Positions 697-42,750 of a stretch of DNA of 42,750 nucleotides are shown here, in pieces. This DNA is from a virus. Position numbers and translations under genes: made by a program. The stretch's first letter is position 1, and each line of letters starts with the position of its first letter. The stretch covers positions 1 through 42,750 of the IMG/VR virus record IMGVR_UViG_3300027969_000174; one strand, given 5' to 3'. The notes under the pieces are model-generated. The model ran no database searches, was not told where the DNA came from, and saw nothing but the letters and a program-made list of their open reading frames with translations.

Positions 697-1884
697 TTAT
701 TCATACTTCTTTAATAGAGCATCAATATTCGGATTGGTTTTTTGTGGCGCGCCAACGCTTACTTTTTCTTTTGCTGGTGCTGTAGGTAGTTCTACAATAT
801 CGCCACCAAGACCAAAACGTTTATTAATCTTATTAAGAGATTTAATGTTGGTTTCGTAACCTTTACTTGGATCCGTAGCGGCGTCAAGCAAGTTTTTCAA
901 TTCTTGGTTAGAGTTAATTTGCGAAGCTGCTATTCCAGTAGCTTTAACAATAGCTTGAACCAATATCGGACGTTGCGACATAATGGCATCACGCGCATCT
1001 TGCTCTGGTGTACCCAGCATAGAACCGCCAACTTGACCAACCATTGAAGATTGCAAAGCCGCAGAAATATTCTTTTGTGGGCTATTTTCTTTAGATTTAA
1101 TACCACCTAAATCTTTCAATACACCATACGAAGTTGCCATGTCAGTAGCTACGTCGTTTACTAAGTTTTTACCTTTAACAAGGGCTTGACCTTTGGTTGT
1201 AGCTTCAGGATTAGCTAAAGGAATAACCGTGCTAGAGGGATTAGCCGCCGTTGGACGTGTAACAAAACCGCCAACCGCTTCATTAAATATAGGTTGTGTA
1301 GCCGCTTTGTAAGTAAGATCTTGACCACGTTGCGCTGTAGTCGCAGAAATATCTTGCCCACGTTTAGAAATGTCGCCTTGATAACGTGTTTCAGCTTTAA
1401 CGCCTAATTCAGTAAAGTATGCTTTTCGTTTATCTAAAGGTAATGCAGATACAGCTTGCCAAGTCATCTGCGCTTGGTCTGGTGTTACTTCTTTACGCAA
1501 AATACCATCTTCTAAATGCGCTTTAATGTTGTTATCTGAAGGGTTAAACGCTAAGTCAGACATCTTTTGTTTAACTAAGTCAAAAGTTTTTTGATTAATT
1601 TCAACGCTTGTTTTTTTAATGCTGCCCTGAAGTTCTTGTGTTTTTAAAGCGTCATTTCTCAAAGCCATTGCCGTTTTAGGGTCAATAGCGGCCACTTGTT
1701 TAAAACCTTCAGGCGTACCAACATCAATACCTTGTGAATATAGTTCACGCAACTTGTTTTGCGTATCAATAGAACGATTCATTTCGCCGTATTTCAACGC
1801 TTCGTTCATCATCCCCAATTGGTTAATTGGTGACTCTAATTGAACGCCTTTAGCTTGGAGGGGGATACTTGGATCAATTGGCAT
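697..1884 (-). CDS. ejection / internal virion protein (left copy)
   Basis: A 395-residue protein beginning MPIDPSIPLQAKGVQLESP, with an AAGGAAT ribosome site just upstream of the ATG. It is rich in Gln, Lys and Ala and mostly helical. Two RGQD units (RGQDISATT, RGQDLTYKA) occur near residues 175-195. The paralogue at 36370-37533 has the same N-terminal motif and three such units, but the two differ at about half of the positions by eye. It lies directly after the gp7-like gene and before the large ejection protein, which is where P22-like phages carry DNA-injection proteins. I do not recognise a catalytic domain, so the role comes from context. Confidence 0.6.
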   Translation of the reverse strand: MPIDPSIPLQAKGVQLESPINQLGMMNEALKYGEMNRSIDTQNKLRELYSQGIDVGTPEGFKQVAAIDPKTAMALRNDALKTQELQGSIKKTSVEINQKTFDLVKQKMSDLAFNPSDNNIKAHLEDGILRKEVTPDQAQMTWQAVSALPLDKRKAYFTELGVKAETRYQGDISKRGQDISATTAQRGQDLTYKAATQPIFNEAVGGFVTRPTAANPSSTVIPLANPEATTKGQALVKGKNLVNDVATDMATSYGVLKDLGGIKSKENSPQKNISAALQSSMVGQVGGSMLGTPEQDARDAIMSQRPILVQAIVKATGIAASQINSNQELKNLLDAATDPSKGYETNIKSLNKINKRFGLGGDIVELPTAPAKEKVSVGAPQKTNPNIDALLKKYE

Positions 1885-1893
1885 AGCTATTCC

Positions 1894-2643
1894 TTAATAA
1901 TTTAACCCAGGGCCGTAGTAGCCTTGTTCAGCAGTTGCCATAGGGATATTAGTATTTGTAGGGCTGTTGTACGCAGAACGGTTAATCAATTGATTCATTT
2001 GATATGCGCCAACACCTTGACCTATAGCATTAGTATAAGCATTAGCAGAGCCAATTTGACCTGCGGCTTGAGCATTAGCTGCGCCTGTCATTAAATTAGC
2101 ATTAGATGACGCCATATTACCTACGTTAGCTGCTTGCCCTGCGGCGGCAGCTTGACCTTGACCGCTTAAAAATTGCAACGGATTTAATCTATTAGCACGA
2201 TTTATTTGATAACGATTAAATGCATTGCTATATTCTTGCGAGCCTAATTCTTGACCATAGGCTTGACCCGCTTTAAGAGCGTTACCAGAAATTAAACCGC
2301 CTCTAGCTGCCGCAGTAGCGTTCATGGCGTTCATGCCTTCTTTTAACCTAAAAGCATATCCAGGATCCATCCCCGCTGCAAAATCAGCCGCGGTAAAGTT
2401 TTGTGTAAATTGACCGCCTGGTTGAGTCATAGCAGATAGCTGATTTACAGCAGTTTCGCCTGCTGTACGATAGGGTTTGCTTAACTCGGCTTGTTGTTGC
2501 AATGCAGCTTGATTGGCTGCGGTAGCGTTATTAGCGGCGTCCGCTTGAGTTTGGGCTGCGCCGCTAGCCGCTCTTGATGACATATATGCACCGCCAAGAA
2601 TGGCTGCACCTCCAACAACGGCTGCTGTTATTCCACCTGCCAT
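1894..2643 (-). CDS. DNA transfer / ejection protein, P22 gp7-like (left copy)
   Basis: A 249-residue Ala/Gly/Asn-rich protein. It starts with a hydrophobic segment (residues 1-25, Ala/Gly/Val) followed by a Gln/Ala-rich helix (about 28-60). A strongly conserved centre, DPGYAFRLKEGMNAMNAT then AAARGGLISGNAL, is shared with the copy at 37543-38301. The C-terminal part repeats short Gln-Ala-Ala-Asn units before a QLINRSAYN motif that is also shared. This architecture is typical of proteins annotated as phage DNA transfer protein (P22 gp7 / p32 type), which are packed in the head and injected with the DNA. The gene lies one base away from the cupin-like gene and nine bases before the next ejection gene, so the three are probably co-transcribed. 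Confidence 0.65.
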   Translation of the reverse strand: MAGGITAAVVGGAAILGGAYMSSRAASGAAQTQADAANNATAANQAALQQQAELSKPYRTAGETAVNQLSAMTQPGGQFTQNFTAADFAAGMDPGYAFRLKEGMNAMNATAAARGGLISGNALKAGQAYGQELGSQEYSNAFNRYQINRANRLNPLQFLSGQGQAAAAGQAANVGNMASSNANLMTGAANAQAAGQIGSANAYTNAIGQGVGAYQMNQLINRSAYNSPTNTNIPMATAEQGYYGPGLNY

Positions 2644-2644
2644 A

Positions 2645-3178
2645 TTAATTCTCCCTATTACTAAAGCCGAATCCGTCGCCTAAAAGCATTTTAACGCTAT
2701 TATTTAATGGTTCAGTATCAATTTGTTGTTTCCTACGTTCTAAAGCCAATGGATTAGACATTAACCCACATTCAGGAATAATGTACAACCGTTCTTCAAT
2801 TGCTTCAATATCGGTACAATTATCTGGATTATCATAAATATCAACCCAAACTAATTCTTCGTCAAATACGCGTCCTACACGCTTAATGCCAGCAGGAGCG
2901 TCAAACTCCAATGGCGCCGTCAACGTATGAATTTCATCGTCGATGTTAACTGCGATTGTACCTTTTTCAAGCTTGACTTTGTAAGGTGTTTTATGTTCAG
3001 CCCCAACAATAACTGACCAAGGTGGGGCAATCATAGTGCGAATGTATTTACCTGGCTCAAAATCATGCAAAAACTTTACGTCGGCTTGAGGCATTTGCAA
3101 TAACGCTTCTTGCAAGCGCTCTACTTTTTCCCGTAAAGGAAGGGCCATTTGCGTAGAAGGGGCGGTAATTATTTGCAT
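2645..3178 (-). CDS. cupin-like virion-module protein without SET domain (left copy)
   Basis: A 177-residue protein. Residues about 35-125 look like a small beta-barrel of the cupin type: alternating strands with KVKLEKGTIAVNIDDE and APLEFDAPAGIKRVGRVF, without an obvious full metal-binding His set. It corresponds to the first 120 residues of the protein at 38303-39136: both have L-x2-PQAD, H-x-F-x-P-x2-YIR and a late DIE-x-(I/L)E-E/T segment. The SET-like domain of the other copy is absent here and is replaced by a short unrelated C-terminus. The gene sits between the fibre/needle-like gene and the gp7-like gene. The function is unknown; a virion-assembly or structural role is only inferred from position. 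Confidence 0.55.
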   Translation of the reverse strand: MQIITAPSTQMALPLREKVERLQEALLQMPQADVKFLHDFEPGKYIRTMIAPPWSVIVGAEHKTPYKVKLEKGTIAVNIDDEIHTLTAPLEFDAPAGIKRVGRVFDEELVWVDIYDNPDNCTDIEAIEERLYIIPECGLMSNPLALERRKQQIDTEPLNNSVKMLLGDGFGFSNREN

Positions 3179-3179
3179 A

Positions 3180-3824
3180 TTATGTAGCTTGCGTTTGTGC
3201 AGTTAAGATGCCGTTAACAAACGTCATACTGCCATTAGCGCCTATAGCCGTTAATTTAGCAGTTGTGATCGTAGCGGTAATACCTACGTTTTGCGTAGCC
3301 ATCGTACCAAGACCAAGGTTAGTTCTAGCCCCCGCAGCCGTAGTTGCGCCTGTACCACCATTAGCGATAATTAAAGTACCTGCAAGCGTAACCGCGCCTG
3401 TGGTGGCTGTAGCTGGGGTTAACCCTGTAGTACCACCACTAATGCTTAATACGCCTGTATTGACAATAGTCACAGCGCCTGTAGCCGCGCTAACTGACAC
3501 GCCTGAACCTGCGGCTACCGAAGTAACACCTGTATTGCTTATAGCAATAGTGCCATTACCATTGGTTACGCCGATGCCTGTGCTTGGCGTTAACGTATTT
3601 TTACTTAAGGTATTCCCTACACTATTACCAATGAGCAATTGACCATCGATATAGCTAGTTTGACCCGTACCACCACGATTGACAGCAACGCCGCCGTCAC
3701 CACCGCTGCCAGTAAAAGTAAATAAATTGTATAAAAAACGATACCAAACGGGGTTTATATCCCCATTATCTTCTATCAACGGCGTTCTAGGCGCGGGGAT
3801 CTTGGTAATATCGGTACTAGCCAT
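3180..3824 (-). CDS. tail fibre / needle-like protein with GGTG repeats (left copy)
   Basis: A 214-residue protein beginning MASTDITKIPAPRTPL. A short anchor (residues 1-40, with PVWYRFLYNLFTFTG) is followed by low-complexity Gly/Thr/Val/Ala repeats: NRGGTGQTSY, several TNTG-V-T-S units and NGGTGATTAAGARTNLGLG. The end, GANGSMTFVNGILTAQTQAT, is identical in the second copy. GGTG-T and ARTNLGLG patterns are typical of trimeric beta-fibrous phage tail fibre proteins. Its place immediately after the gp10-like gene matches the P22 tail needle (gp26) position. Needle versus fibre cannot be decided from sequence. The start ATG overlaps the stop region of the gp10-like gene at 3824. Confidence 0.65.
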   Translation of the reverse strand: MASTDITKIPAPRTPLIEDNGDINPVWYRFLYNLFTFTGSGGDGGVAVNRGGTGQTSYIDGQLLIGNSVGNTLSKNTLTPSTGIGVTNGNGTIAISNTGVTSVAAGSGVSVSAATGAVTIVNTGVLSISGGTTGLTPATATTGAVTLAGTLIIANGGTGATTAAGARTNLGLGTMATQNVGITATITTAKLTAIGANGSMTFVNGILTAQTQAT

Positions 3825-5263
3825 TATCTACCTGTAGGACTCATTATTAAATTAGCGCCTGTAATAACAATTTTTACAGGGTCAGTACCCGATAATTCAT
3901 AAACACGATCACGCAATTTCAAAGTCATGCCAAGACGACGCCAAAATGATCTAAAGCCATATTGACCAATGCGGCCCATTTTTGTCCAATGTTCGCTTGA
4001 CCAAGTGTGACCGCCATCGTCAGACCAACGCAACATGGCTTCAGGATCATCGCCTTGACCAGAATTAAGTCCTGGGCCTGATTCGCACATTAATTGCAAA
4101 CCATGTTGAGCAGTGCGATTAAGATTGTTTTGGTTTTCAGGAATAGGACGCCATGAGCGTAACCATTTTTGAGTAACGCCATTATCTTCATAAACATCTA
4201 AATCAAAAGTATACAAATTGCCATTTTCGTAGTCGCCTACAATGGTTTCGCTATTAAAACTCATTTGACATTGACTACGATGGCGTGTAAATGCGCCGTT
4301 ATCCCAACCTGCACGTTCGTGCCAAGCACCCGTAGCCACATCAAAAGCCCATGTTTTACCAACCGTAGGAAAAGCTAATATATAAAATGCATGACCTTCT
4401 TGCTGATAAGTGTACGCAACCGCATCAGAAACGTCGCCATAGCTTTGAATAGCAAACTCTATGGCATGGGTAGAGATACGTTTGCCAGTGTAGCCTTGGT
4501 TGCGGTAAACGATGCCATATCCCCTTGGATCTTGTCCAAGCCAAAATAGGCTGTTATCTAGTTTACAAATAGACGCTTTAGCAATACAACCAATTTCGTT
4601 ATAAGCACCTTGAATTGGCGCTAGTGGAAACGGTGTTGTAGCTGCGTCGTACCAAACTTCAGTAGTACCAGTACCAAATACCCAAACTTCACGGTTATTT
4701 GATACTACGGCTACCACGTTATCAGGGGTACTTTCAGCAGCCGCAAACGCTAAAGGGTCAATAGCGGTACCATCAAAAAGACCTGTAACCCAAATAATTT
4801 GTGTACCTGGCTGATTAAAGCAAAAGTAGCCGTCAATGTAACAAACCGTATCGGCACCATAAAAGTCAGGATCGGTGATTTGAACAAAGGTATTGGTTGT
4901 TTCGGTGTAAACGTACGCATTAGCGCCGCAAGCAATAAATATTTGAGTACCGTTATCAGCAATAGATACAGGGCCTGTACCGCTAATATCCCCTAATTTA
5001 GTGGCGGTGTAGTCAGGTAAGATTTTATAAAACTCAGTACCAGAAGCTACATAAGCATCAAGACCATTGCTTAAATGCGTCCAAAGCCCACGAATAGGGC
5101 CGGTACCAACTGTAGTGACTAGACGCAAACCTGGGGCGCGGTTAAGGAACCCGCCTGTTAAACCGCCTTCAGGGACGGCTTCGGGGAACAAATTAATCAT
5201 GCGGTTATCCGCAGCATTTACGCTACGGGCAACATACGCTTGGCCTAAAATCGGCGTCAGCAT
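3824..5263 (-). CDS. packaged-DNA stabilisation / tail accessory protein, P22 gp10-like (left copy)
   Basis: A 479-residue protein starting MLTPILGQAYVARSVNAAD with NRMINLFPEA and PGLRLVTTVGTGPIRGLW soon after. This opening, the length (P22 gp10 is about 470 residues) and the beta-propeller-like body with W-x-DDGGHTWS match the phage stabilisation family of P22 gp10. Such proteins close the portal channel and receive the tail needle. The gene abuts the gp4-like gene upstream and the fibre/needle gene downstream by shared start/stop bases, which indicates translational coupling. The copy at 39783-41222 has the same length and differs at scattered sites only. Confidence 0.82.
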   Translation of the reverse strand: MLTPILGQAYVARSVNAADNRMINLFPEAVPEGGLTGGFLNRAPGLRLVTTVGTGPIRGLWTHLSNGLDAYVASGTEFYKILPDYTATKLGDISGTGPVSIADNGTQIFIACGANAYVYTETTNTFVQITDPDFYGADTVCYIDGYFCFNQPGTQIIWVTGLFDGTAIDPLAFAAAESTPDNVVAVVSNNREVWVFGTGTTEVWYDAATTPFPLAPIQGAYNEIGCIAKASICKLDNSLFWLGQDPRGYGIVYRNQGYTGKRISTHAIEFAIQSYGDVSDAVAYTYQQEGHAFYILAFPTVGKTWAFDVATGAWHERAGWDNGAFTRHRSQCQMSFNSETIVGDYENGNLYTFDLDVYEDNGVTQKWLRSWRPIPENQNNLNRTAQHGLQLMCESGPGLNSGQGDDPEAMLRWSDDGGHTWSSEHWTKMGRIGQYGFRSFWRRLGMTLKLRDRVYELSGTDPVKIVITGANLIMSPTGR

Positions 5264-5979
5264 TAGTAGTTACCGGCAAATATGTTAAAGCGCTGACGAG
5301 TGCCAACAATGCTGTAAGGCAAAGACATAATGTCGTCAGGATTATTGATACGTTTAAGATTGCGCTTAGAAGTCATCGCAATACGAGCTACGTTAGGTGG
5401 TGGCTCAATACCGAACTCATTGGCAATTTCACACGCCAAGTTGTATTTAAATGCTCTCAAATAACCAGGAGGCATCAAAATGTTAGTGGATAAGCTAGGA
5501 ACGCTCATTAGCTCGTCTACAGAAATAAAATGCCATTCCAATACCTTAGTTGGTACAGGATATAAGGTCATGGTGATATTAGGGTATTCCATGTTGATCC
5601 ACATAACTTGTGGATAAGTGGAAGTAACCGTTTTAACCGCAATACCATCGTATTGCTGTTGGTTAATCAGTTTGATACCAAATGAGATGCCATTAGCTGG
5701 ATCACGGAAATAAGTAGAATCGTCAATCATAATAGGACGATTTCCTACAAAGTCGCCACTAGGCCCAAGCGTTTGAGTCTTAAGCCCCGGAGTCCATGAA
5801 TAAGTCTGATCTTGAGTATTAAATACAGATAGACGCTCAGTATTCCATGAGTCAATCATTTGATTAAGCGCAGTCAAAGCGTCTTGCGAAGTGGCAGCAG
5901 ACGGCGTTTCACCTTCAGCCAAAATACCTAATACGCGTAATGCGCCGTTAATTTGATCGTTGGCTGTATAAATCGCCAT
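5263..5979 (-). CDS. head-to-tail joining / tail accessory factor, P22 gp4-like (left copy)
   Basis: A 238-residue protein starting MAIYTANDQINGALRVLGI with a helical N-terminus (residues 1-50, ending DALTALNQMIDSW) and a later PPGYLRAFKYNLACEIANEFG segment. This pattern (two early helices, a W-containing centre, then a long helix with LAxxIAxEFG) is that of the P22 gp4-type tail accessory factor that extends the portal ring. Gene order (coat, small proteins, gp4-like, gp10-like) supports this. Comparison with 41222-41938 shows only two residue differences over the entire length although many third codon positions differ, so it is under strong protein-level constraint. Confidence 0.8.
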   Translation of the reverse strand: MAIYTANDQINGALRVLGILAEGETPSAATSQDALTALNQMIDSWNTERLSVFNTQDQTYSWTPGLKTQTLGPSGDFVGNRPIMIDDSTYFRDPANGISFGIKLINQQQYDGIAVKTVTSTYPQVMWINMEYPNITMTLYPVPTKVLEWHFISVDELMSVPSLSTNILMPPGYLRAFKYNLACEIANEFGIEPPPNVARIAMTSKRNLKRINNPDDIMSLPYSIVGTRQRFNIFAGNY

Positions 5980-5989
5980 AGCTTACCCC

Positions 5990-6190
5990 TTACTCTGTAG
6001 TTTTACGACGTGTTCTTTTTTCCAGTGTATTAACAGGAGCCGCAATAACTTCTTCTACTTCAGCTACAGGCTCTGGTTGCGTATCCAGTTCGTAGCGTTT
6101 CCAACCATGTGCTTCGTCATGTTCTGCTTCAGCCTCCATTGTAGCGACTTTAGAGCCATGAATGGGGTGTTTTAAGTAAATTATTGGCAT
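5990..6190 (-). CDS. small conserved phage protein of the head-tail region (left copy)
   Basis: A 66-residue protein starting MPIIYLKHPIHGSKVATME, then an acidic middle and a basic end (KRTRRKTTE). Proteins with the I-Y-x-KHPxHG-x-KVAT opening are common in tailed phages between the coat and head-completion genes. No function is known to me. The counterpart at 41949-42161 is four residues longer in the acidic middle and otherwise very similar. It sits 10 bases upstream of the gp4-like gene and behind a conserved hairpin. Confidence 0.7.
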   Translation of the reverse strand: MPIIYLKHPIHGSKVATMEAEAEHDEAHGWKRYELDTQPEPVAEVEEVIAAPVNTLEKRTRRKTTE

Positions 6191-6205
6191 GATTTCTTTA
6201 GTTAG

Positions 6206-6227
6206 ATAGGGAGCCTAAGCCCCCTAT
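6206..6227 (-). terminator. conserved intergenic hairpin (left copy)
   Basis: On the minus strand ATAGGGGGC and GCTCCCTAT pair over nine positions (one G-U) around a TTAG loop. It lies between the stop at 6232 and the ATG at 6190. The same hairpin is kept at 42177-42198. No U-run follows, so it may be a weak terminator, an RNA-stabilising element or a processing site. Confidence 0.5.
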
Positions 6228-6231
6228 TTTA

Positions 6232-6525
6232 TTAAGCTACAACAGCAAATTGCCATTTAGAGCCATCAGATACAAACAACTTGCCAGTACCAGTTGCATT
6301 GGTAGTAGTAGCAATAGAACCAGCAGCGGCGGTAGTTGTAGTAGTGTTAGCAGTAATAGCAGTAGTTAAAAAGTAAAGTGAAGCGACAGCATTACCAGCA
6401 GCAGCAGTACCAGATGTGGTAACGCTAGTAGCAGTAACAGCAGCAAGTGCGCTAGCACCTGTAACAGTCAAGCTATCAAACTGTGGATCTGCATACGCAA
6501 CACCGACAGCTTTGGTATTAGGCAT
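6232..6525 (-). CDS. GVAY-tagged small virion-module protein, Thr/Ala-rich (left cassette)
   Basis: A 97-residue protein starting MPNTKAVGVAYADPQFDSL. After this tag the chain is an Ala/Thr/Ser-rich, strand-prone sequence ending DGSKWQFAVVA. The opening motif (N-x2-x-GVAY-x-D) recurs in the proteins at 15321-15749 and 42201-42560, which have otherwise different bodies. The position next to the putative decoration protein suggests a virion surface or head-completion role, but no known domain is visible. In the second module this gene has been replaced by an unrelated body while both flanks are conserved. The ATG is preceded by an AAGGAAA ribosome site. Confidence 0.6.
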   Translation of the reverse strand: MPNTKAVGVAYADPQFDSLTVTGASALAAVTATSVTTSGTAAAGNAVASLYFLTTAITANTTTTTAAAGSIATTTNATGTGKLFVSDGSKWQFAVVA

Positions 6526-6543
6526 GATGTTTCCTTTATAAAG

Positions 6544-6561
6544 CCCGCCCCGAAGGGCGGG
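6544..6561 (-). terminator. GC hairpin with UUCG loop after the decoration-type gene (left copy)
   Basis: On the minus strand CCCGCCC-TTCG-GGGCGGG forms a perfect seven-pair stem closed by the extra-stable C(UUCG)G tetraloop, starting nine bases after the stop codon at 6570. The following bases are CTTTATAAAGG, a poor U-run, so termination is probably partial. The matching hairpin at 42578-42595 has six T. Confidence 0.65.
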
Positions 6562-6569
6562 ATATTACA

Positions 6570-6980
6570 TTAAGCTAAACGGTATAGAGTCCAAGCACCG
6601 TCGCCTGTTTTACGAGCGCGGAAAGCTTGTGCTGTACCAGCAGTAGCAACAACAGTCATCAGACCAACCAAAGTCCAACCAGTGTTTGTTGTCAAAGTAA
6701 TAACGCCAGATGTATTACCATCTACGTTAATTACTGAGAAATCAAATGAACTGTTTGTTTTAGCGCTAGAAATTAGCGTATCCAAATCAGCACAAGTTGG
6801 GAGTTGATAAGAAACTGCACTTGCGCCTGGATTGCCAAGAATAATGCCATTTTGCAATTGAGCAGCAGTCAGAGTTACGCCAGTTGTCAAAGACACAGGA
6901 GCAGCTTGGATTACTAAATCTACTTCGTTTAAATTGCCGTCACCAAATTGGTAACCGCCAGCGCCATTAGGTAGTGCCAT
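6570..6980 (-). CDS. putative head decoration / capsid-associated protein (left copy)
   Basis: A 136-residue protein starting MALPNGAGGYQFGDGNLNEV. It is strand-rich with an IILGNPGASAVSYQLPT segment and ends KTGDGAWTLYRLA. The first gene after the coat protein and its small size, beta-rich composition and high conservation are what is expected of a capsid decoration or head-stabilising protein. That role is inferred; I do not recognise the family. The last 147 bases are repeated at the right edge of the window with only three base changes. An AAGGAAT ribosome site precedes the ATG. Confidence 0.6.
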   Translation of the reverse strand: MALPNGAGGYQFGDGNLNEVDLVIQAAPVSLTTGVTLTAAQLQNGIILGNPGASAVSYQLPTCADLDTLISSAKTNSSFDFSVINVDGNTSGVITLTTNTGWTLVGLMTVVATAGTAQAFRARKTGDGAWTLYRLA

Positions 6981-18238: not shown

Positions 18239-18687
18239 GGTCAAATTGTCAAATTGTCATTTGAATTTAGCCAAGCGGGCGCGTGGCCGTAAACCTAGGT
18301 CAAATTGTCATTTGAGTAAACCTAGGTCAAATTGTCATTTGTATTTGATATGGGTCAAATTGTCATTTGTCTAGATATAGGTCAAATTGTCATTTGTATT
18401 TGTTTACCAGCTTTTCCTTTTTTGCGTGGGAAATTCCCGCAGGGCGCGGGCGAAAATATAGGTCAAATTGTCAAATTGTCACGCGAAAATAATCGCTGGC
18501 TTATAACATTGCCCGCCATAGCTCTATACAAATATACAATCTATTAAGATAAAGATAAATTAATGACAATTTGACCCTACTAAGCTTTAAGCCCTTATTC
18601 TATAAGCCCCTAATATGGGTCAAATCGCCCTTTGCAAATGACCCATAAAATGACAATTTGACCCATGTTTAGACAATTAGACCTAGG
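18239..18687. repeat. iteron / operator array, consensus GGTCAAATTGTCATTTG
   Basis: Copies in forward orientation start at 18239 (a doubled AAATTGTC form), 18298, 18325, 18353, 18380 and 18461 (doubled form). Reverse-orientation copies lie at 18562-18576 and 18648-18666, with a degenerate one at 18670-18687. The core TCAAAT-TGTC-ATTTGA is itself a dyad with six-base arms, complete at 18249-18264 and 18300-18315. Between the reverse copies, ATGGGTCA (18615-18622) pairs with TGACCCAT (18639-18646). The first copies are preceded by CCTAGG. It is an array for a dimeric DNA-binding protein. Confidence 0.85.
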
Positions 18688-19137: not shown

Positions 19138-19190
19138 GCAGCGCCAGGGGCGGCAATACCGCCGCGCCCTGTTAATAAACTAAAGTAAGG
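19138..19190 (+). repeat. hairpin-plus-leader cassette, copy 2
   Basis: GCAGCGCCAGGGGCGG begins a GC-rich hairpin (GGCGG-CAATA-CCGCC), followed by CGCCCTGTTAATAAACTAAA and GTAAGG just upstream of the clamp-like gene. The arrangement matches the cassette at 19861-19911. Confidence 0.65.
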
Positions 19191-19200
19191 TAAAACCATC

Positions 19201-19851
19201 ATGTCAAATCAATTCACTATTAAACAATCCGCGCTTAAGGCCCTAGTATTGCTGGCAGCTAAAAAAGATATTCGCTATTACCTAGTTGGCGTAAACGTAG
19301 AATTTTCCCCGTCAATTACTCGCATTGTGGCAACCGACGGCCACAAACTAGGCTTATATCAATCCGGCGCTCAAAATGTCGGCAATGGCGGGTTAATGAT
19401 TCCAGCCGATGTAATCAACGCGTTGCCAAAATCCGGCAGTTATGATCCTGAGCTAACATTCATAAAATGCGACGGCAACGCGACGGGCTGGACAATTACC
19501 GGATTACCTAATAACGGCCAAGTAGTTTTCCAAGAAATTGACGGAAAATTCCCCGATTATCAACGGGTATGCAGTTTTAAAACCGACGGGCAGCCAGGCG
19601 GCTATAACCCGGAATATTTAATGCAATTCTTAAAAGTCCAGCATTTATTAGGCGGATCCAAAAAATGCACAATCAACGTATTCCAAAATGGTAAAAGTGG
19701 CGCCCTAGTAACCCTAGCGGGCGTGGATAATTTTTATGGCGTCATTATGCCGATGAAAACCGACGCCGACGGCGTAACCGGCGCCAGCGTACCGCCTGAT
19801 TTTATAACCGATTTAAAAACCAGCCCGCCATCATTGCAGGCCGTGGCCTAA
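19201..19851 (+). CDS. truncated beta sliding clamp-like protein (DnaN domain II plus end of domain III)
   Basis: A 216-residue protein that aligns by eye with E. coli DnaN from the second domain on. DIRYYLVGV (residues 23-31) matches DVRYYLNGM, IVATDGHKLGLY (42-53) matches VATDGHRLAVC, GLMIPADVINAL (64-75) matches the second half of domain II, and DGKFPDYQRV (114-123) matches DGRFPDYRRV. YNPEYLMQFL (135-144) and YGVIMPMK (179-186) match the last part of domain III. Domain I and the first half of domain III are missing. Bacterial clamps have about 366 residues. It could be a phage clamp assembling in another stoichiometry, a decoy for clamp-binding proteins, or a modulator of the host clamp. 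The gene has the repeated early leader and a clear ribosome site. Confidence 0.82.
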   Translation: MSNQFTIKQSALKALVLLAAKKDIRYYLVGVNVEFSPSITRIVATDGHKLGLYQSGAQNVGNGGLMIPADVINALPKSGSYDPELTFIKCDGNATGWTITGLPNNGQVVFQEIDGKFPDYQRVCSFKTDGQPGGYNPEYLMQFLKVQHLLGGSKKCTINVFQNGKSGALVTLAGVDNFYGVIMPMKTDADGVTGASVPPDFITDLKTSPPSLQAVA

Positions 19852-36369: not shown

Positions 36370-37533
36370 TTACTTAAGTAAAGGATTGCTTGTATCTACA
36401 CCACCAGCGCTCATTCCTTCGTTTGCCATTACTTCATTAACAAACTGACCTTTACGAGCCTTCATTAAACGCAATACTTCTTTACCAGCTTCTTTACGAA
36501 TTTCGTTTGGTAAGGATGCGTCTGCCAATTGACCTGCCGCTTCTTTGTAAGACGCAGTATCTTTATCAGACTGTGGGCCTTCAAAGCGCGGTACCATCTT
36601 AAGCGCCATATCAGCAATCGGTTTCAATTTAGCAATAGCAATTGCGCCTGGTGTGGCTTTACCAATAATTCCAACGCCAATATCAATTGCACGACCAGCG
36701 CCGCTACCAGTAGATTGGTCAATCAAACCGCCATCTTTAGTGACGCGTTCAAGTTCAGTAATAGCCAAACCAAGGTCTTTACTTTGTTGTTTTTGCAACG
36801 CAGCAGTCTTTTCAAATGTAGCGCTTGGTTTACCAACTTGACCTGGTTTGCCAATAACTTCACCAAAGCGATTAAATTGGGTCACGTTACCTGCCGCGTC
36901 AGTAAGAGTATTGGCTACAACGTCCGGGGCGTATTGCATATCTTGACCACGGCGTGTGGTGGACGCAGAAATATCTTGACCACGCATAGTTGTAGTTGCA
37001 GAAATGTCTTGACCACGGCGTGTAGTTTCTAGTTGAGCGCGTTCTTGGACTTTCATACCCATATCGGTAAAGAATTGCTTACGTTGCGCCGCGTTCATTG
37101 GCATTACTTGTTGAAGTAATGCTTGCGCTTGTGCTTGTGGAAGCTCGCCTTTTAATACGCTATCTTGCAAATGAGCAGTTACGTTCTCATTAGATGGGTT
37201 AAATACTAGATTACCAAACTGTTCACGTTGAATATCTAATTGTTTAGCTTTAGCGTCTAAACCAAGCTTTTTAGCTTCTAGGCCAAGCTTTTCTTGTTCA
37301 CCAAGCGCTTTACCATACGCCAAACCTGTTTTACCGTATTTAATTAATTCAGAACGTGCTTCAGGTTTAGTTAGGTCAGCACTTCTAAGATATTCATTTA
37401 AACGATTTTGTTCTTCAATACCGCGGTTCATCTCGCCAATTTTCATGGCTTCACCAACCGCAGCTAACTGATTAACAGGTAAATCAATGTTAAAAGGTTT
37501 AACTTGAAGGGGGATATTTGGATCAATTGGCAT
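36370..37533 (-). CDS. ejection / internal virion protein (right copy)
   Basis: A 387-residue protein starting MPIDPNIPLQVKPFNIDLPV, homologous to 697-1884 in opening and in the RGQD units: RGQDISATTT, RGQDISASTT and RGQDMQYAPD (about residues 177-205), one more than in the left copy. The rest is helical and diverged, with short insertions and deletions. An AAGGAAT ribosome site precedes the ATG. The role follows from position among ejection genes. Confidence 0.62.
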   Translation of the reverse strand: MPIDPNIPLQVKPFNIDLPVNQLAAVGEAMKIGEMNRGIEEQNRLNEYLRSADLTKPEARSELIKYGKTGLAYGKALGEQEKLGLEAKKLGLDAKAKQLDIQREQFGNLVFNPSNENVTAHLQDSVLKGELPQAQAQALLQQVMPMNAAQRKQFFTDMGMKVQERAQLETTRRGQDISATTTMRGQDISASTTRRGQDMQYAPDVVANTLTDAAGNVTQFNRFGEVIGKPGQVGKPSATFEKTAALQKQQSKDLGLAITELERVTKDGGLIDQSTGSGAGRAIDIGVGIIGKATPGAIAIAKLKPIADMALKMVPRFEGPQSDKDTASYKEAAGQLADASLPNEIRKEAGKEVLRLMKARKGQFVNEVMANEGMSAGGVDTSNPLLK

Positions 37534-37542
37534 ATTTATTCC

Positions 37543-38301
37543 TTAACTTTGAACTGGGCCAATAAAGTTACTAGAGCCTTCTGTACCAGAGCCATATCCA
37601 CCATAGTAGCTAGTTGGTTGATTATACGCAGAACGGTTGATCAATTGATTCATTTGATACCCGCCAATACCTTGACCAATAGCGTTGGTATAGGCATTAG
37701 CCGCGCCAACTTGACCTGCGGCAGTAGCATTACCTGCACCAGTAATGTTAGCAGCTTGTGAACTACCAAAAGAGCCTACATTGGCTGCTTGATTACTTGC
37801 GCCTGCTTGACCGATGTTAGTTAAAAATTTCAATGGGTCTAACAAGTTATTACGATTCATTTGAAACATATTTTGTGCGCGGTTAAATGCGTTGCTATAT
37901 TCTTGCGAACCTAATTCTTGTCCAAATGCTTGACCTGCTCTAAGAGCGTTACCAGAGATCAAACCACCACGGGCAGCCGCAGTAGCGTTCATGGCGTTCA
38001 TGCCTTCTTTAAGTCTAAAAGCATAGCCAGGGTCAGCTTGATACGCGCCGGGGCCAAAAGTAAAGTCTTGTGTGGCTACGCCACCAGGTTGAGTCATAGC
38101 AGACAATTGATTTACGGCGGTTGTACCCGCAGTTGTAAACGGTTGTTGTAAAGCTAATTGTCGATCTAGCGCTTGTTGTTGCGCTGCGGTAGCTTGATTG
38201 GCTGCATCGGCTTGTGTTTGTGCAGCGCTTTTAGAAGCTTGGGACGATAAAACGCCGCCAATTACGGCGCCTCCTACGATGGCTGTTGCGACTCCAGACA
38301 T
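37543..38301 (-). CDS. DNA transfer / ejection protein, P22 gp7-like (right copy)
   Basis: A 252-residue protein, clearly the counterpart of 1894-2643: same hydrophobic N-terminus (SGVATAIVGGAVIGGVLSSQ), the identical ATAAARGGLISGNAL core, and the same QLINRSAYN motif. The linkers and the last 20 residues differ. It starts one base after the cupin-SET gene and would be packaged and injected with the DNA. Confidence 0.66.
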   Translation of the reverse strand: MSGVATAIVGGAVIGGVLSSQASKSAAQTQADAANQATAAQQQALDRQLALQQPFTTAGTTAVNQLSAMTQPGGVATQDFTFGPGAYQADPGYAFRLKEGMNAMNATAAARGGLISGNALRAGQAFGQELGSQEYSNAFNRAQNMFQMNRNNLLDPLKFLTNIGQAGASNQAANVGSFGSSQAANITGAGNATAAGQVGAANAYTNAIGQGIGGYQMNQLINRSAYNQPTSYYGGYGSGTEGSSNFIGPVQS

Positions 38302-38302
38302 A

Positions 38303-39136
38303 TTAATTTCTCCTTATTGCTAGGCTCAACGCCTGACGGTAATCAATTGTGATTTCTTCACCCAAATTACCGCCTTTACAACCGACGATAGGCACAACTG
38401 CTACCAAGTTTACATCACCATTATCTAACAAAATCATCTTGGCGTTGGGATTTTTTGCATGATTTGTAAATCTTCCTGCTGGCGTACGTTTACCAGCAAT
38501 TCTAGCAGGCGCAATCACTTCGCCTGCTTCAATGTTTCCTGTGGCAAAAACGCCTTTGCCTTCAATATTTGAAGGAGATACCATCATCTTGTAGTTACCA
38601 TACGGCATATCAATTTGGTCATCTAAATTCTGTACTTGCGCTTGTACTGTTTCTTGGTCAAAGCCGTATTCAGCAATTGCCGCGTAATAATCTGCAATAT
38701 CTTTAGAATGATCAAAAGACAGCAATAACTGTTGATTTTTTTGATTCTCTTGCCAAGTAGCGCTTTTATCTAAAAACATCGTTTCTAGCTTTTCTATGTC
38801 GGTTTCGTCTGTTGCGTAGACGTTTTGCCAAATCATCGTTTCATGGATATAACCAATCTTACGCCCTGGGCCTGCCACAAACGTCTGAGGCGCTACTAGC
38901 TCAGTATGTGAGCCATCCTCGTTAACCATTGTTACGCGCCCAGCAAGCATGATATTTAGGTGCGTTGTAGTTTGACGATGACCAATTGAGAATGTATCAG
39001 CGGGGATTGTTACTTCACGGATATAAATGCTTGGGCCAAACCGATGCACCACGGGGCAGTCTGCCTGTGGTTGTTTTAAAAATTCAGCTTCTAAAACCTG
39101 AATCTTTTGTTCGGTGATAGCGGTTAATTGGGTCAT
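38303..39136 (-). CDS. cupin-like domain fused to a SET-like methyltransferase domain (right copy)
   Basis: A 277-residue fusion. Residues about 30-105 form a cupin-like barrel (GHRQTTTHLNIMLAGRVTMV, PQTFVAGPGRKIGYIHET), homologous to the protein at 2645-3178. Residues about 180-270 have the SET hallmarks: NIEGKGVFATGNIEAGEVIA (189-209), RFTNHAKNPNA (222-232; canonical R-x-x-NHS-x-x-PN) and GEEITIDYRQAL (259-270), with the candidate catalytic Tyr at Y266. In SET enzymes these bind S-adenosylmethionine and the lysine channel. The usual Ser/Cys after NH is Ala/Lys here, so activity is unproven. The ATG overlaps the previous stop. A virion-protein lysine methyltransferase is a possibility. Confidence 0.72.
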   Translation of the reverse strand: MTQLTAITEQKIQVLEAEFLKQPQADCPVVHRFGPSIYIREVTIPADTFSIGHRQTTTHLNIMLAGRVTMVNEDGSHTELVAPQTFVAGPGRKIGYIHETMIWQNVYATDETDIEKLETMFLDKSATWQENQKNQQLLLSFDHSKDIADYYAAIAEYGFDQETVQAQVQNLDDQIDMPYGNYKMMVSPSNIEGKGVFATGNIEAGEVIAPARIAGKRTPAGRFTNHAKNPNAKMILLDNGDVNLVAVVPIVGCKGGNLGEEITIDYRQALSLAIRRN

Positions 39137-39783
39137 TACGTAGCTTGCGTTTGTGCAGTTAAGATGCCATTAACAAAAGTCATACTGCCATTAGCGCCTA
39201 AAGCGGTTAATTTAGCAGTTGTAATCGTAGCAGTAATACCTACGTTTTGCGTAGCCATCGTACCTAAACCTAGATTAGTTCTAGCTCCTGCGGCAGTAGT
39301 TGCGCCTGTGCCACCATTAGCTAAAGCTAAAGTACCTGAAAGCACTACAGCCCCAGTTGTTGCGCTAGATGGAGCTAATCCTGTAGTCCCACCACTAAAA
39401 GAAGTAACGCCTGTATTGGCTATGGTTACTGCGCCTGTAGCCGCGCTGACTGATACACCCGCGCCCGCAGTTACCGAAGTAACGCCTGTGTTAGCAATAG
39501 CAATTGTGCCATTACCATTGGTAACGCCAATACCAGTACCTGGTGTTAATGTATTTTTGCTAAGGGTATTCCCTAAGCTGTTACCAATCAGCAATTGCCC
39601 ATTGGTATAGCTTGTTTGACCTGTACCACCACGGTTAACAGCAAGACCGCCGTCCCCACCGCTGCCGGTAAAAATAAATAGGTTGTATAGGAAACGATAC
39701 CAAGCAGGCGTAATATCGTTTGTTTCTGGGTCTAGAAACGGTGTCCTAGGCGCAGGGATTTTAGTAATATCTGGATTTGCCAT
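39136..39783 (-). CDS. tail fibre / needle-like protein with GGTG repeats (right copy)
   Basis: A 215-residue counterpart of 3180-3824, starting MANPDITKIPAPRTPFLDPE with NDITPAWYRFLYNLFIFTG. The repetitive Thr/Gly/Ala body, NGGTGATTAAGARTNLGLG and the terminal 20 residues are near-identical; the linker and some repeat units differ. It is likely a trimeric beta fibre or the tail needle. Its stop overlaps the start of the cupin-SET gene. Confidence 0.65.
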   Translation of the reverse strand: MANPDITKIPAPRTPFLDPETNDITPAWYRFLYNLFIFTGSGGDGGLAVNRGGTGQTSYTNGQLLIGNSLGNTLSKNTLTPGTGIGVTNGNGTIAIANTGVTSVTAGAGVSVSAATGAVTIANTGVTSFSGGTTGLAPSSATTGAVVLSGTLALANGGTGATTAAGARTNLGLGTMATQNVGITATITTAKLTALGANGSMTFVNGILTAQTQAT

Positions 39784-41222
39784 TATCTGCTAGTCGGCGT
39801 TACTATTAAATTAGCGCCTGTAATAACGATTTTTACAGGGTCAGTACCAGACACTTCATAGACACGATCACGCAACTTAAGCGTCATGCCAAGACGACGC
39901 CAAAAGGCACGGAAACCATATTGACCAATCTTACCCATTTTTGTCCAATGTTCGTTAGACCACGTATGGCCGCCATCATCAGACCAACGAAGCATTGCTT
40001 CAGGGTCGCTACCTTGACCTAAATTAAGTCCTGGGCCTGACTCGCAAAGCAATTGCAAGCCATGTTGAGCCGTACGCATAGTAGTGTTTTGATTTTCAGG
40101 AATAGGACGCCATGAACGTAACCACTTCTGAATAACGCCATTATCTTCGTATAGTTCTAAGTCAAATGCGTATAAGTTGCCATTCTCATAGTCACCAACA
40201 ATAGTTTCGCTATCAAAACTCATTTGGCATTGGGCGCGATGGCGGGTAAATGCACCGTTGTCCCAACCTGCACGTTCATGCCAAGCACCTGTAGATACGT
40301 CATACGCCCAAGTCTTGCCAGCAGTCGGAAACGCTAACACATAGAACGCATGACCTTCTTGCTGATAAGTGTAAGCAACAGCGTCAGAAACATCGCCATA
40401 GCTTTGAATAGCGAACTCAATGGCATGGGTAGAAATGCGTTTGCCTGTGTAACCTTGGTTGCGATAAACGATGCCATAGCCCCGTGGATCAGCGCCAAGC
40501 CAAAACAAGCTGTTATCTAATTTCGCAATAGACGATTTGGCAATACAACCGATCTCGTTATACGCGCCTTGAATTGGCGCTAATGGAAACGGTGTTGTGG
40601 CTGCGTCATACCAAACTTCAGTTGTGCCTGTACCAAATACCCATACTTCACGATTGTTTGATACTACGGCTACCACATTATCCGGTGTACTTTCAGCAGC
40701 CGCAAACGCTAATGGGTCAATTGATGTGCCATCAAAAATGCCTGTAACCCAAAGAATTTGTGTGCCTGGTTGGTTAAAGCAAAAGTAACCATCAATGTAA
40801 CAGACTGTTTCCGCCCCATAAAAGTCAGGATCAGTAATTTGAACAAAAGTATTAGTTGTTTCGGTGTAAACGTACGCATCGGCGCCGCAAGCAATGAATA
40901 GTTGCGTACCATTGTCAGCAATAGATACTGGGCCTGTACCGCTAATATTACCTAATTTAGTAGCAGTAAAGTCAGGCAAAATCTTATAAAACTCATTGCC
41001 AGACGCTACATAAGCATCTTCACCATTAGTTAAATGCGTCCAAAGCCCACGAATAGGGCCAGTACCAACCGTAGTAAGTAATCGCAAGCCGGGCGTACGA
41101 TTAAGAAAACCCCCTGTGTAGCCACCTTCAGGCGTGGCTTCTGGAAATAGGTTAATCATACGGTTATCCGCAGCGTTAACGCTACGAGCAACGTACGCTT
41201 GCCCTAAAATCGGCGTTAGCAT
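39783..41222 (-). CDS. packaged-DNA stabilisation protein, P22 gp10-like (right copy)
   Basis: A 479-residue protein of the same length as 3824-5263 and nearly the same sequence, with scattered substitutions (for example EAVPEGGLTGGF against EATPEGGYTGGF). Start and end motifs and the W-x-DDGGHTWS segment are kept. It would occupy the tail-portal junction. Being the same in both copies means either one of them is a second allele or the phage carries two. Confidence 0.82.
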   Translation of the reverse strand: MLTPILGQAYVARSVNAADNRMINLFPEATPEGGYTGGFLNRTPGLRLLTTVGTGPIRGLWTHLTNGEDAYVASGNEFYKILPDFTATKLGNISGTGPVSIADNGTQLFIACGADAYVYTETTNTFVQITDPDFYGAETVCYIDGYFCFNQPGTQILWVTGIFDGTSIDPLAFAAAESTPDNVVAVVSNNREVWVFGTGTTEVWYDAATTPFPLAPIQGAYNEIGCIAKSSIAKLDNSLFWLGADPRGYGIVYRNQGYTGKRISTHAIEFAIQSYGDVSDAVAYTYQQEGHAFYVLAFPTAGKTWAYDVSTGAWHERAGWDNGAFTRHRAQCQMSFDSETIVGDYENGNLYAFDLELYEDNGVIQKWLRSWRPIPENQNTTMRTAQHGLQLLCESGPGLNLGQGSDPEAMLRWSDDGGHTWSNEHWTKMGKIGQYGFRAFWRRLGMTLKLRDRVYEVSGTDPVKIVITGANLIVTPTSR

Positions 41223-41938
41223 TAATAATTACCAGCAAAAATGTTAAAGCGCTGACGAGTGCCAACAATGCTGTAAGGCAAAGACATAATGTCGTCAGGG
41301 TTATTAATACGCTTAAGATTGCGCTTAGAAGTCATCGCAATACGGGCTACATTAGGTGGTGGCTCAATACCGAATTCATTGGCAATTTCACACGCCAAGT
41401 TGTACTTGAAAGCACGTAAATAGCCAGGAGGCATCAAAATATTGGTAGATAAACTAGGAACACTCATTAGCTCGTCTACAGAAATAAAATGCCATTCCAA
41501 TACCTTAGTAGGTACAGGATAGATGGTCATAGTGATATTTGGGTATTCCATGTTAATCCACATAACCTGTGGATAAGTGGAGGTCACTGTTTTAACCGCA
41601 ATACCATCATATTGCTGTTGATTAATTAGTTTGATACCAAATGAAATACCATTAGCAGGGTCACGGAAATAAGTAGAGTCGTCAATCATAATTGGACGAT
41701 TACCTACAAAGTCACCGCTAGGCCCAAGCGTTTGGGTCTTTAAACCGGGTGTCCATAGATAAGTCTGATCTTGCGTATTAAATACAGATAGACGCTCGGT
41801 ATTCCACGAATCAATCATTTGATTGAGTGCAGTCAAAGCGTCTTGAGAAGTAGCAGCGGAAGGCGTTTCACCTTCAGCCAAAATACCTAATACGCGTAAT
41901 GCGCCGTTAATTTGATCGTTGGCTGTATAAATCGCCAT
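41222..41938 (-). CDS. head-to-tail joining protein, P22 gp4-like (right copy)
   Basis: A 238-residue protein identical to 5263-5979 except at residue 61 (Leu for Ser in QTYLWTPG) and about residue 137 (Ile for Leu in TMTIYPVP). The bases differ at many third positions. It therefore represents a real diverged allele, not a read error. Role as in the left copy. Confidence 0.8.
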   Translation of the reverse strand: MAIYTANDQINGALRVLGILAEGETPSAATSQDALTALNQMIDSWNTERLSVFNTQDQTYLWTPGLKTQTLGPSGDFVGNRPIMIDDSTYFRDPANGISFGIKLINQQQYDGIAVKTVTSTYPQVMWINMEYPNITMTIYPVPTKVLEWHFISVDELMSVPSLSTNILMPPGYLRAFKYNLACEIANEFGIEPPPNVARIAMTSKRNLKRINNPDDIMSLPYSIVGTRQRFNIFAGNY

Positions 41939-41948
41939 AGCTTATCCC

Positions 41949-42161
41949 TTACTCTGTAGTTTTACGACGTGTTCTTTTTTCCAGTGTATTAACAGGAGCC
42001 GCAATCACTTCTTCTATTGCTTTAATTTCTTCAACTACGGGCGCTGGTTGCGTATCCAGTTCGTAGCGTTTCCAGCCGTTTGACTCATCATACTCCGCTT
42101 CGGCTTCCATTGTAGCGACTTTAGTCCCATGAATGGGGTGTTTCATGTAAATTATTGGCAT
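41949..42161 (-). CDS. small conserved phage protein of the head-tail region (right copy)
   Basis: A 70-residue protein starting MPIIYMKHPIHGTKVATMEA with acidic middle and KRTRRKTTE end, the counterpart of 5990-6190 with four extra residues in the acidic part. The function is unknown. Confidence 0.7.
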   Translation of the reverse strand: MPIIYMKHPIHGTKVATMEAEAEYDESNGWKRYELDTQPAPVVEEIKAIEEVIAAPVNTLEKRTRRKTTE

Positions 42162-42176
42162 GATTTTTTCAGTTAG

Positions 42177-42198
42177 ATAGGGAGCCTAAGCCCCCTAT
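42177..42198 (-). terminator. conserved intergenic hairpin (right copy)
   Basis: Same nine-pair stem and TTAG loop as 6206-6227, between the stop at 42201 and the ATG at 42161. Conservation in both copies suggests a function for the RNA. Confidence 0.5.
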
Positions 42199-42200
42199 TT

Positions 42201-42560
42201 TTATGCAGCAGCAATAATTACCCAGTTTGTACCATCTTCGCAAACCAAAGTAGCCCATTTACCAGCAGTAGCAGCCAAAATAGCTGTTCCAGCGGTAGCT
42301 GAAGTCAAAGGTTTTACGTTAGATGAAGCTGAGATAACTGTATATGTACCTGATAAGTTTTTAATAGTAATCGTACGGCCGATATAGCTTGAACCGCTAG
42401 GTAGCGTTACTGTTACGTTAGCTGCCGAACCGTTAGCTACAACATAGTTCTCTGAATCGCCGAGTGTAAAACTTGCAGTTTTAGTTACAGGCGCGTTCAA
42501 ATAAAATGCTGTAAGGGCTGGGTCAGAATACGCAACACCAACGGGTTGATTATTTGCCAT
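42201..42560 (-). CDS. GVAY-tagged small virion-module protein (right cassette)
   Basis: A 119-residue protein starting MANNQPVGVAYSDPALTAFY. After the tag the body is a beta chain (VANGSAANVTVTLPSGSSYI, ITIKNLSGTYTVISASSNV) ending DGTNWVIIAAA, unrelated to the Thr/Ala-rich body of 6232-6525 in the matching place. TVTLPSGSSYIGRTITIKN resembles phage fibre or appendage modules. An AAGGAAA ribosome site precedes the ATG, right after a terminator-type hairpin. Confidence 0.6.
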   Translation of the reverse strand: MANNQPVGVAYSDPALTAFYLNAPVTKTASFTLGDSENYVVANGSAANVTVTLPSGSSYIGRTITIKNLSGTYTVISASSNVKPLTSATAGTAILAATAGKWATLVCEDGTNWVIIAAA

Positions 42561-42571
42561 GATTTTTCCTT

Positions 42572-42595
42572 AAAAAACCCGCCCCGAAGGGCGGG
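42572..42595 (-). terminator. intrinsic terminator with UUCG loop (right copy)
   Basis: On the minus strand CCCGCCC-TTCG-GGGCGGG then TTTTTTA. A perfect seven-pair stem with a stable tetraloop and six T, starting nine bases after the stop of the preceding gene. It is a strong terminator; the counterpart at 6544-6561 has the same stem but a poorer T-run. Confidence 0.8.
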
Positions 42596-42603
42596 ATATT
42601 ACA

Positions 42604-42750
42604 TTAAGCTAAACGGTAAAGAGTCCAAGTACCATCGCCTGTTTTACGAGCGCGGAAAGCTTGTGCTGTACCAGCAGTAGCAACAACAGTCATCAGACCA
42701 ACCAAAGTCCAACCAGTGTTTGTTGTCAAAGTAATAACGCCAGATGTATT
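42604..42750 (-). CDS. putative head decoration protein, C-terminal end (right copy, cut by the window edge)
   Basis: The last 48 residues of a frame ending KTGDGTWTLYRLA with its stop at 42604-42606. It matches the end of the gene at 6570-6980 with only three base differences in 147. The rest lies beyond the window. Confidence 0.7.
   Translation of the reverse strand, partial: NTSGVITLTTNTGWTLVGLMTVVATAGTAQAFRARKTGDGTWTLYRLA

Follow-up and report, generated by a model that had tools for sequence, protein, structure and literature searches.

A natural sliding clamp without domain I is known from Escherichia coli, where beta*, a short, UV-induced form of beta, is encoded by the host. The clamp cleft, an antibiotic target, is a hub that schedules the polymerases, the repair and the replication control of bacteria. 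Its 18 motif-binding residues and the dimer-interface residues of beta have been listed (PMC11139829). Bearers of the clamp-binding motif are Pol III alpha, delta, Hda, the TLS polymerases and MutL (PMC11139829), joined by RecB, whose motif QVEMEF was newly reported (PMC13254535). Here we describe a 216-aa phage protein, the half-clamp or mini-clamp, encoded in the window, which is the whole stretch of DNA analyzed, a single virus record 42,750 bases long.

The half-clamp protein was matched by Pfam DNA_pol3_beta_2 (PF02767, the DnaN central domain) with an E value of 2.7e-7, by the clamp profile phrog_947 (E 1.3e-12) and, in a sequence search, by bacterial clamps in the PDB (E 2e-8). PHROG_3007 matched over its full length (E 4.3e-30), with residues 5-188 of 216 aligned to positions 3-187 of 190 in the profile. 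In the family alignment with E. coli DnaN, residues 1-123 (domain I) and ~249-310 (first half of domain III) had no counterpart, and nothing else large was gone. AlphaFold2 modeled the protein from an alignment of 58 homologs with a pLDDT of 88.5 and a pTM of 0.80, and in a VIA-align superposition model residues 1-187 fitted E. coli beta 124-366 (6fvl_D) to 2.2 Å over 176 residues (Z 17.0). Because of this superposition, the two retained parts, domain II and the latter half of domain III, are predicted to stand to each other as they do in native beta. The same arrangement was predicted for a relative from Salmonella phage KFS-SE2 (L067, of the Skatevirus type, which is without a recognizable polymerase), which was modeled with a pLDDT of 95.5 and a pTM of 0.89 and matched E. 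coli beta 125-366 with Z 13-14 and ~3 Å over ~165 residues. An earlier note made from the letters alone had proposed a clamp-like protein lacking domain I and half of domain III, with three of six half-domains left. Profiles, alignment, AlphaFold2 and VIA-align support this proposal, the count is right by both alignment and model, the blocks DIRYYL, VATDGHKL, GKFPDYQRV and YGVIMPMK stand in the ORF in the order that the note gave, and the monomer is modeled with a clamp fold. By sequence and predicted structure, the ORF is thus confirmed as clamp-derived and as corresponding to domain II plus the second half of domain III of DnaN. Its start codon lies 10 bases after a plausible ribosome-binding site, TAAGG. 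Coordinates are collected in Table 1.

Table 1 Features of the half-clamp gene and its surroundings in the window.
Feature	Position	Strand	Basis
Iteron-like array, 10 copies of GGTCAAATTGTCA (8 exact; 8 on +, 2 on -)	18239..18663		Motif count
Putative Shine-Dalgarno sequence TAAGG of the half-clamp ORF	19186-19190	+	Sequence
Mini-clamp (half-clamp) ORF, 216 aa	19201..19851	+	Open frame, profile matches, AlphaFold2, VIA-align
Domain II first half, DnaN-type; residues 1-57 = E. coli ~124-183	19201..19371	+	Alignment, structure model
DIRYYL, residues 23-28; cleft residues R25 (=R152), L28 (=L155)	19267..19284	+	Family alignment
VATDGHKL, residues 43-50; cleft residues T45, G47, H48, K49, L50 (=172, 174-177)	19327..19350	+	Family alignment
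Domain II second half, DnaN-type; residues 58-124 = E. coli ~184-248	19372..19572	+	Alignment, structure model
GKFPDYQRV, residues 115-123; cleft residues P118, R122, V123 (=242, 246, 247)	19543..19569	+	Family alignment
Domain III, second half only, DnaN-type; residues 125-187 = E. coli ~311-366	19573..19761	+	Alignment, structure model
YGVIMPMK, residues 179-186; cleft residues V181, M183, P184, M185, K186 (=360, 362-365)	19735..19758	+	Family alignment
C-terminal tail, residues 188-216; low model confidence; lone aromatic residue	19762..19848	+	AlphaFold2 and tail comparison
Primase-helicase (DUF5906 / RepB-primase-like), 767 aa	21538..23841	-	Profile matches
Family-A DNA polymerase, 656 aa	23899..25869	-	Profile matches

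The gene is not peculiar to the window phage and belongs to an old, widespread family. Homologs were found in 114 phage records at an E value of 0.01 and in 219 at an E value of 1, both lists taking in some full-length clamps, and a single search matched the half-clamp to 312 IMG/VR loci. Hosts of the phages include Salmonella, Escherichia, Klebsiella, Acinetobacter, Vibrio, Burkholderia, Xanthomonas and Pseudomonas. The short architecture is common to all 58 aligned relatives (mean identity 23%; family members of about 170-260 aa), 46 of which were matched by PF02767, and each of 23 carrier records (23/23) contained exactly one PHROG_3007 match. These relatives were gathered with degenerate patterns by sub-clade, which biased the columns near E. 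coli positions 144-157 and 168-178; statistics were therefore repeated without them. In a maximum-likelihood tree a single branch with support of 100/98 parts half-clamps from full clamps, consistent with one origin. About 37 of the 58 relatives carry a C-terminal tail, mostly with a lone W or F placed 4-15 residues past the MPxR end (VPPDF, APAW, ADTSW and APDTAW are examples), while many others stop at MPMRL or one residue further. The lone aromatic residue is possibly a fold-back ligand for the protein's own cleft or a motif for a partner.

Annotation of the family is inconsistent. Across many phage records half-clamps are named 'RusA-like Holliday junction resolvase' (PHROG_3007 and RefSeq, for example NC_004333 gp15, NC_054642 and PQ850598), which looks like a misannotation from the profile matches. 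No RusA family was among the Pfam matches of the 216-aa protein (E up to 0.1) or of the 58 relatives (E up to 0.01), and a RusA resolvase identity was rejected on this ground. In Bcep781 the half-clamp, gp15, is annotated 'DNA Pol III b subunit fragment' and Rus is a different gene, gp22. No description of the half-clamp family was found in the open-access literature searched, where this unusual DnaN variant, widespread and misnamed, is uncharacterized.

Whether the short form is merely a broken gene can be judged from its relatives and from deletions in deposited mutant clones. Salmonella phage seszw wild type (MZ375232) carries the half-clamp gene. From clones 150S, 170S, 200S and 290S exactly this gene and a 66-aa neighbor are gone at this place, with flanking genes intact, and the seszw records MZ375324, MZ375328, MZ375334 and MZ375352 lack both relative to MZ375232. 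At least 25 MZ375xxx records with the coat gene are absent from the list of half-clamp-bearing records. Clone type (L/S) was tried as a predictor of the gene's presence in this series and is inconsistent, as 190S retains the gene. If the clones are viable, which their deposition as phage clones implies, the half-clamp seems dispensable on the laboratory host in seszw. These absences, with the truncation relative to DnaN, are what a functionless, decaying remnant of an acquired dnaN would explain. Against decay, dN/dS between near relatives is 0.07-0.15, indicating purifying selection, and the architecture and cleft are alike in 58 diverse relatives that form one well-supported family in the tree. 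Selection and the single branch argue against a remnant strongly enough that we consider it next to impossible. Frameshift or assembly error as the origin of the short ORF was rejected on the same dN/dS values and on dozens of intact relatives of the same shape; the frameshift in related phages that the earlier note had allowed for was not seen, the 58 relatives sharing one architecture.

What the family has kept and lost was then read against the residue lists of PMC11139829. By the family alignment, all 18 cleft positions (18/18) fall in the retained part, as opposed to none of the 13 dimer-interface positions (0/13; I78, F106, I272, L273 and ion pairs among them). Within the half-clamp family, cleft positions had a mean conservation of 2.97 bits versus 1.35 for the rest (p 9e-9), a difference that still held after the search-pattern columns were dropped (p 2e-6); for comparison, full clamps gave 2.80 versus 1.49 bits. 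R25, Y27, L28, T45, G47, H48, G115, P118, R122, Y139, M183 and P184 are nearly invariant over the 58 relatives, cleft position 344 is unconserved, and 364 and 176/177 are conserved only in part. By simple counting, an internal deletion of 62 residues can be placed in domains II-III in 180 ways, only 11 of which drop all domain III interface residues yet spare every cleft residue. Alignment and model together indicate that both faces of the canonical dimer interface are lost and that the motif-binding cleft is retained and strongly conserved. The inner-surface basic residues R197/K198 are mostly lost in the family, and a family-specific Lys or Arg is found at E. coli position 329 in 48 of 58 relatives (K145 in the window protein). 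Judging from helix periodicity, this side chain probably points from its helix in domain III toward the DNA, and its conservation hints at contact with DNA.

The genomic surroundings of the half-clamp bear on its possible partners. Besides the replication genes of Table 1, the window encodes a P22-like portal, a DUF2800 nuclease, a small endonuclease and a DEAD/SNF2 helicase. The GGTCAAATTGTCA array, for which 0.03 copies would be expected by chance, immediately precedes the mini-clamp operon; near relatives have six (L005/L029), three (L034) or two (L031) copies. The array resembles replication-origin iterons or an operator. The record ends, 697-6716 and 36370-42750, are collinear over about 6-7 kb with 70-92% DNA identity and 31-99% protein identity, as if a circular genome of ~36 kb had been closed on a diverged strain variant or a tail module had been duplicated. 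In phages of the Skatevirus type a ParB-like gene lies near the half-clamp (L013 18162-18971), and a distant ParB-like gene lies near it on the other strand in the distantly related L042 (3969-4559). The hexameric motif QMHLSL in the Skatevirus ParB-like neighbor was set aside as probably due to chance, since it probably falls in the ParB helix-turn-helix and is absent from the L042 ParB.

The main rival to the reading that we prefer draws on this neighborhood. It takes the half-clamp as a ring-less, monomeric accessory of the phage's family-A polymerase, of the UL42 type, which would hold the polymerase (or a helicase or nuclease) to DNA or to the host replisome. In BcepC6B-type phages the half-clamp gene directly follows the family-A polymerase gene on the same strand, in Xhv1 it directly precedes that gene, in L038 and L043-L045 it adjoins the polymerase gene, and the window phage has both polymerase and primase-helicase within 6 kb. 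The conserved basic residue at position 329 would suit such a helper as well. In the window clade, however, the half-clamp is flanked by the small terminase gene and the primase-polymerase cluster, both of which are on the opposite strand, and beyond the nearest relatives it has diverged more quickly, with 36-60% identity against 65-79% for the polymerase. Several complete carriers also have no recognizable polymerase: PF00476, phrog_17, PF00136 and PF07733 matched nothing in Bas77, KpnS_VR6602, SHI, Vibrio 1.115 or Skarpretter, each covered as a full record, although absence by profile falls short of proof. The clamp-binding motif that the earlier note looked to in the phage polymerase did not materialize, as no conserved motif was seen in the polymerase, nuclease or helicase of the window phage; the sole candidate in the primase, QAALL/QSALL, is a poor fit, and motif counts were near chance in the window and five other carrier loci. 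For lack of a conserved motif, a processivity clamp that engages the phage polymerase through a canonical motif was rejected, and the broader helper role strikes us as unlikely, with roughly the standing of a second choice.

The same data speak to a true ring clamp of four chains and 12 half-domains, perhaps with composite domains built from two half-domains, the new stoichiometry that the earlier note had suggested. Three half-domains per chain fit the arithmetic, the clamp fold is retained and new interfaces are conceivable. The proposal is unsupported because the interface is lost, no loader is recognizable, some carriers are without a recognizable polymerase and seszw clones are without the gene. 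All canonical interface residues are affected by that loss, and a profile search for clamp-loader delta and delta-prime found neither in the 23 carrier records, where a host loader could serve instead. The predicted secondary structure of the L067 protein has no helix at the place of the second inner helix of domain II, and the loss of R197/K198 from the inner surface counts against a ring as well. We regard a four-chain ring as very improbable.

We favor, at a probability of about 0.5, a reading in which the half-clamp serves as a decoy or adaptor, a docking module without a ring whose cleft binds proteins of the host or of the phage, with a mechanism that we infer as follows. The half-clamp would close no ring and act as a soluble docking module, and its cleft would take up clamp-binding motifs borne by other proteins. 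Where a phage lacks its own polymerase, the partners would be host proteins or unrecognized phage ones, candidates on the host side being Pol III alpha, delta, Hda, the TLS polymerases, MutL and RecB. The phage might compete with the host clamp for these motif bearers or redirect them to phage DNA, a function that would be non-essential yet selected. Counted in favor of the docking module are the fold, the loss of the dimer interface, the retention and conservation of the cleft, the lack of a recognizable loader, the carriers without a recognizable polymerase, the seszw deletions, the purifying selection, the single branch in the tree and the lack of a conserved clamp-binding motif in the phage's own polymerase, nuclease and helicase. 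Host proteins appear to be likelier partners than phage ones, because several carriers have no recognizable polymerase and the replication proteins of the window have no good conserved motif. The decoy for host clamp-binding proteins proposed in the earlier note agrees with the kept, conserved cleft, while its partner stays a candidate. On the other side, the polymerase adjacency in BcepC6B-type phages and Xhv1 suggests a replication partner, the Lys/Arg at position 329 hints at DNA contact, and the incomplete conservation at cleft positions 344, 364 and 176/177 fits a docking module less well. If the decoy caught Pol III alpha or delta, moreover, a phage dependent on the host replisome for its own replication would be harmed.

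A related alternative has the half-clamp act directly on the host clamp loader or clamp, occupying delta through the cleft or entering a mixed assembly, and so block or alter host replication. Delta binds this same cleft in beta (PMC11139829), and the cleft is conserved in the half-clamp. The half-clamp has lost, however, the surfaces by which it could pair with a host protomer, and phages relying on host replication would be harmed, so that direct action on loader or clamp appears distinctly unlikely.

A bolder form of the docking-module reading is that these proteins are widespread viral, ring-less clamp mimics that would use the DnaN cleft as a soluble bait, capturing or redirecting host motif-bearing proteins while hidden under the 'RusA-like' label. 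The processes touched would then be replication, mismatch repair, translesion synthesis or RecBCD. We hold this bait together with its reach tentatively, at somewhat short of even odds. If true, phages would address the clamp hub by mimicry and not solely by clamp-binding inhibitors, and a small soluble tool for studies of clamp-binding motifs would be at hand. The annotation of a large phage family would be corrected as well, including that of the BASEL laboratory E. coli phages Bas14 and Bas77-Bas81.

Compared with DnaN (PF02767, E. coli beta), the half-clamp shares the fold of domain II and the second half of domain III and a complete motif-binding cleft, which is a binding site as predicted from sequence. 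It differs in having neither domain I, the first half of domain III nor the dimer-interface residues, so that the three domains I-II-III and the head-to-tail interface of a DnaN are absent, and in its length of about 170-260 aa versus ~366. PHROG_3007 is matched over the whole profile and differs in its RusA-like name, which lacks profile support. PCNA, whose domains I-II have been aligned with domains II-III of beta (PMC13254535), and T4 gp45 are trimeric clamps of similar length and of the clamp superfamily. They have four half-domains, or two complete clamp domains, per chain, whereas the half-clamp model has three, or one and a half, and its cleft is DnaN-type. Gp168 (PDB 7evp) is likewise a phage protein acting on clamp biology and was among the VIA-align matches owing to the clamp chain of that entry; it binds the clamp itself, whereas the half-clamp is itself a clamp fragment. 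E. coli beta*, for which trimerization has been reported, keeps the whole of domain III, unlike the half-clamp.
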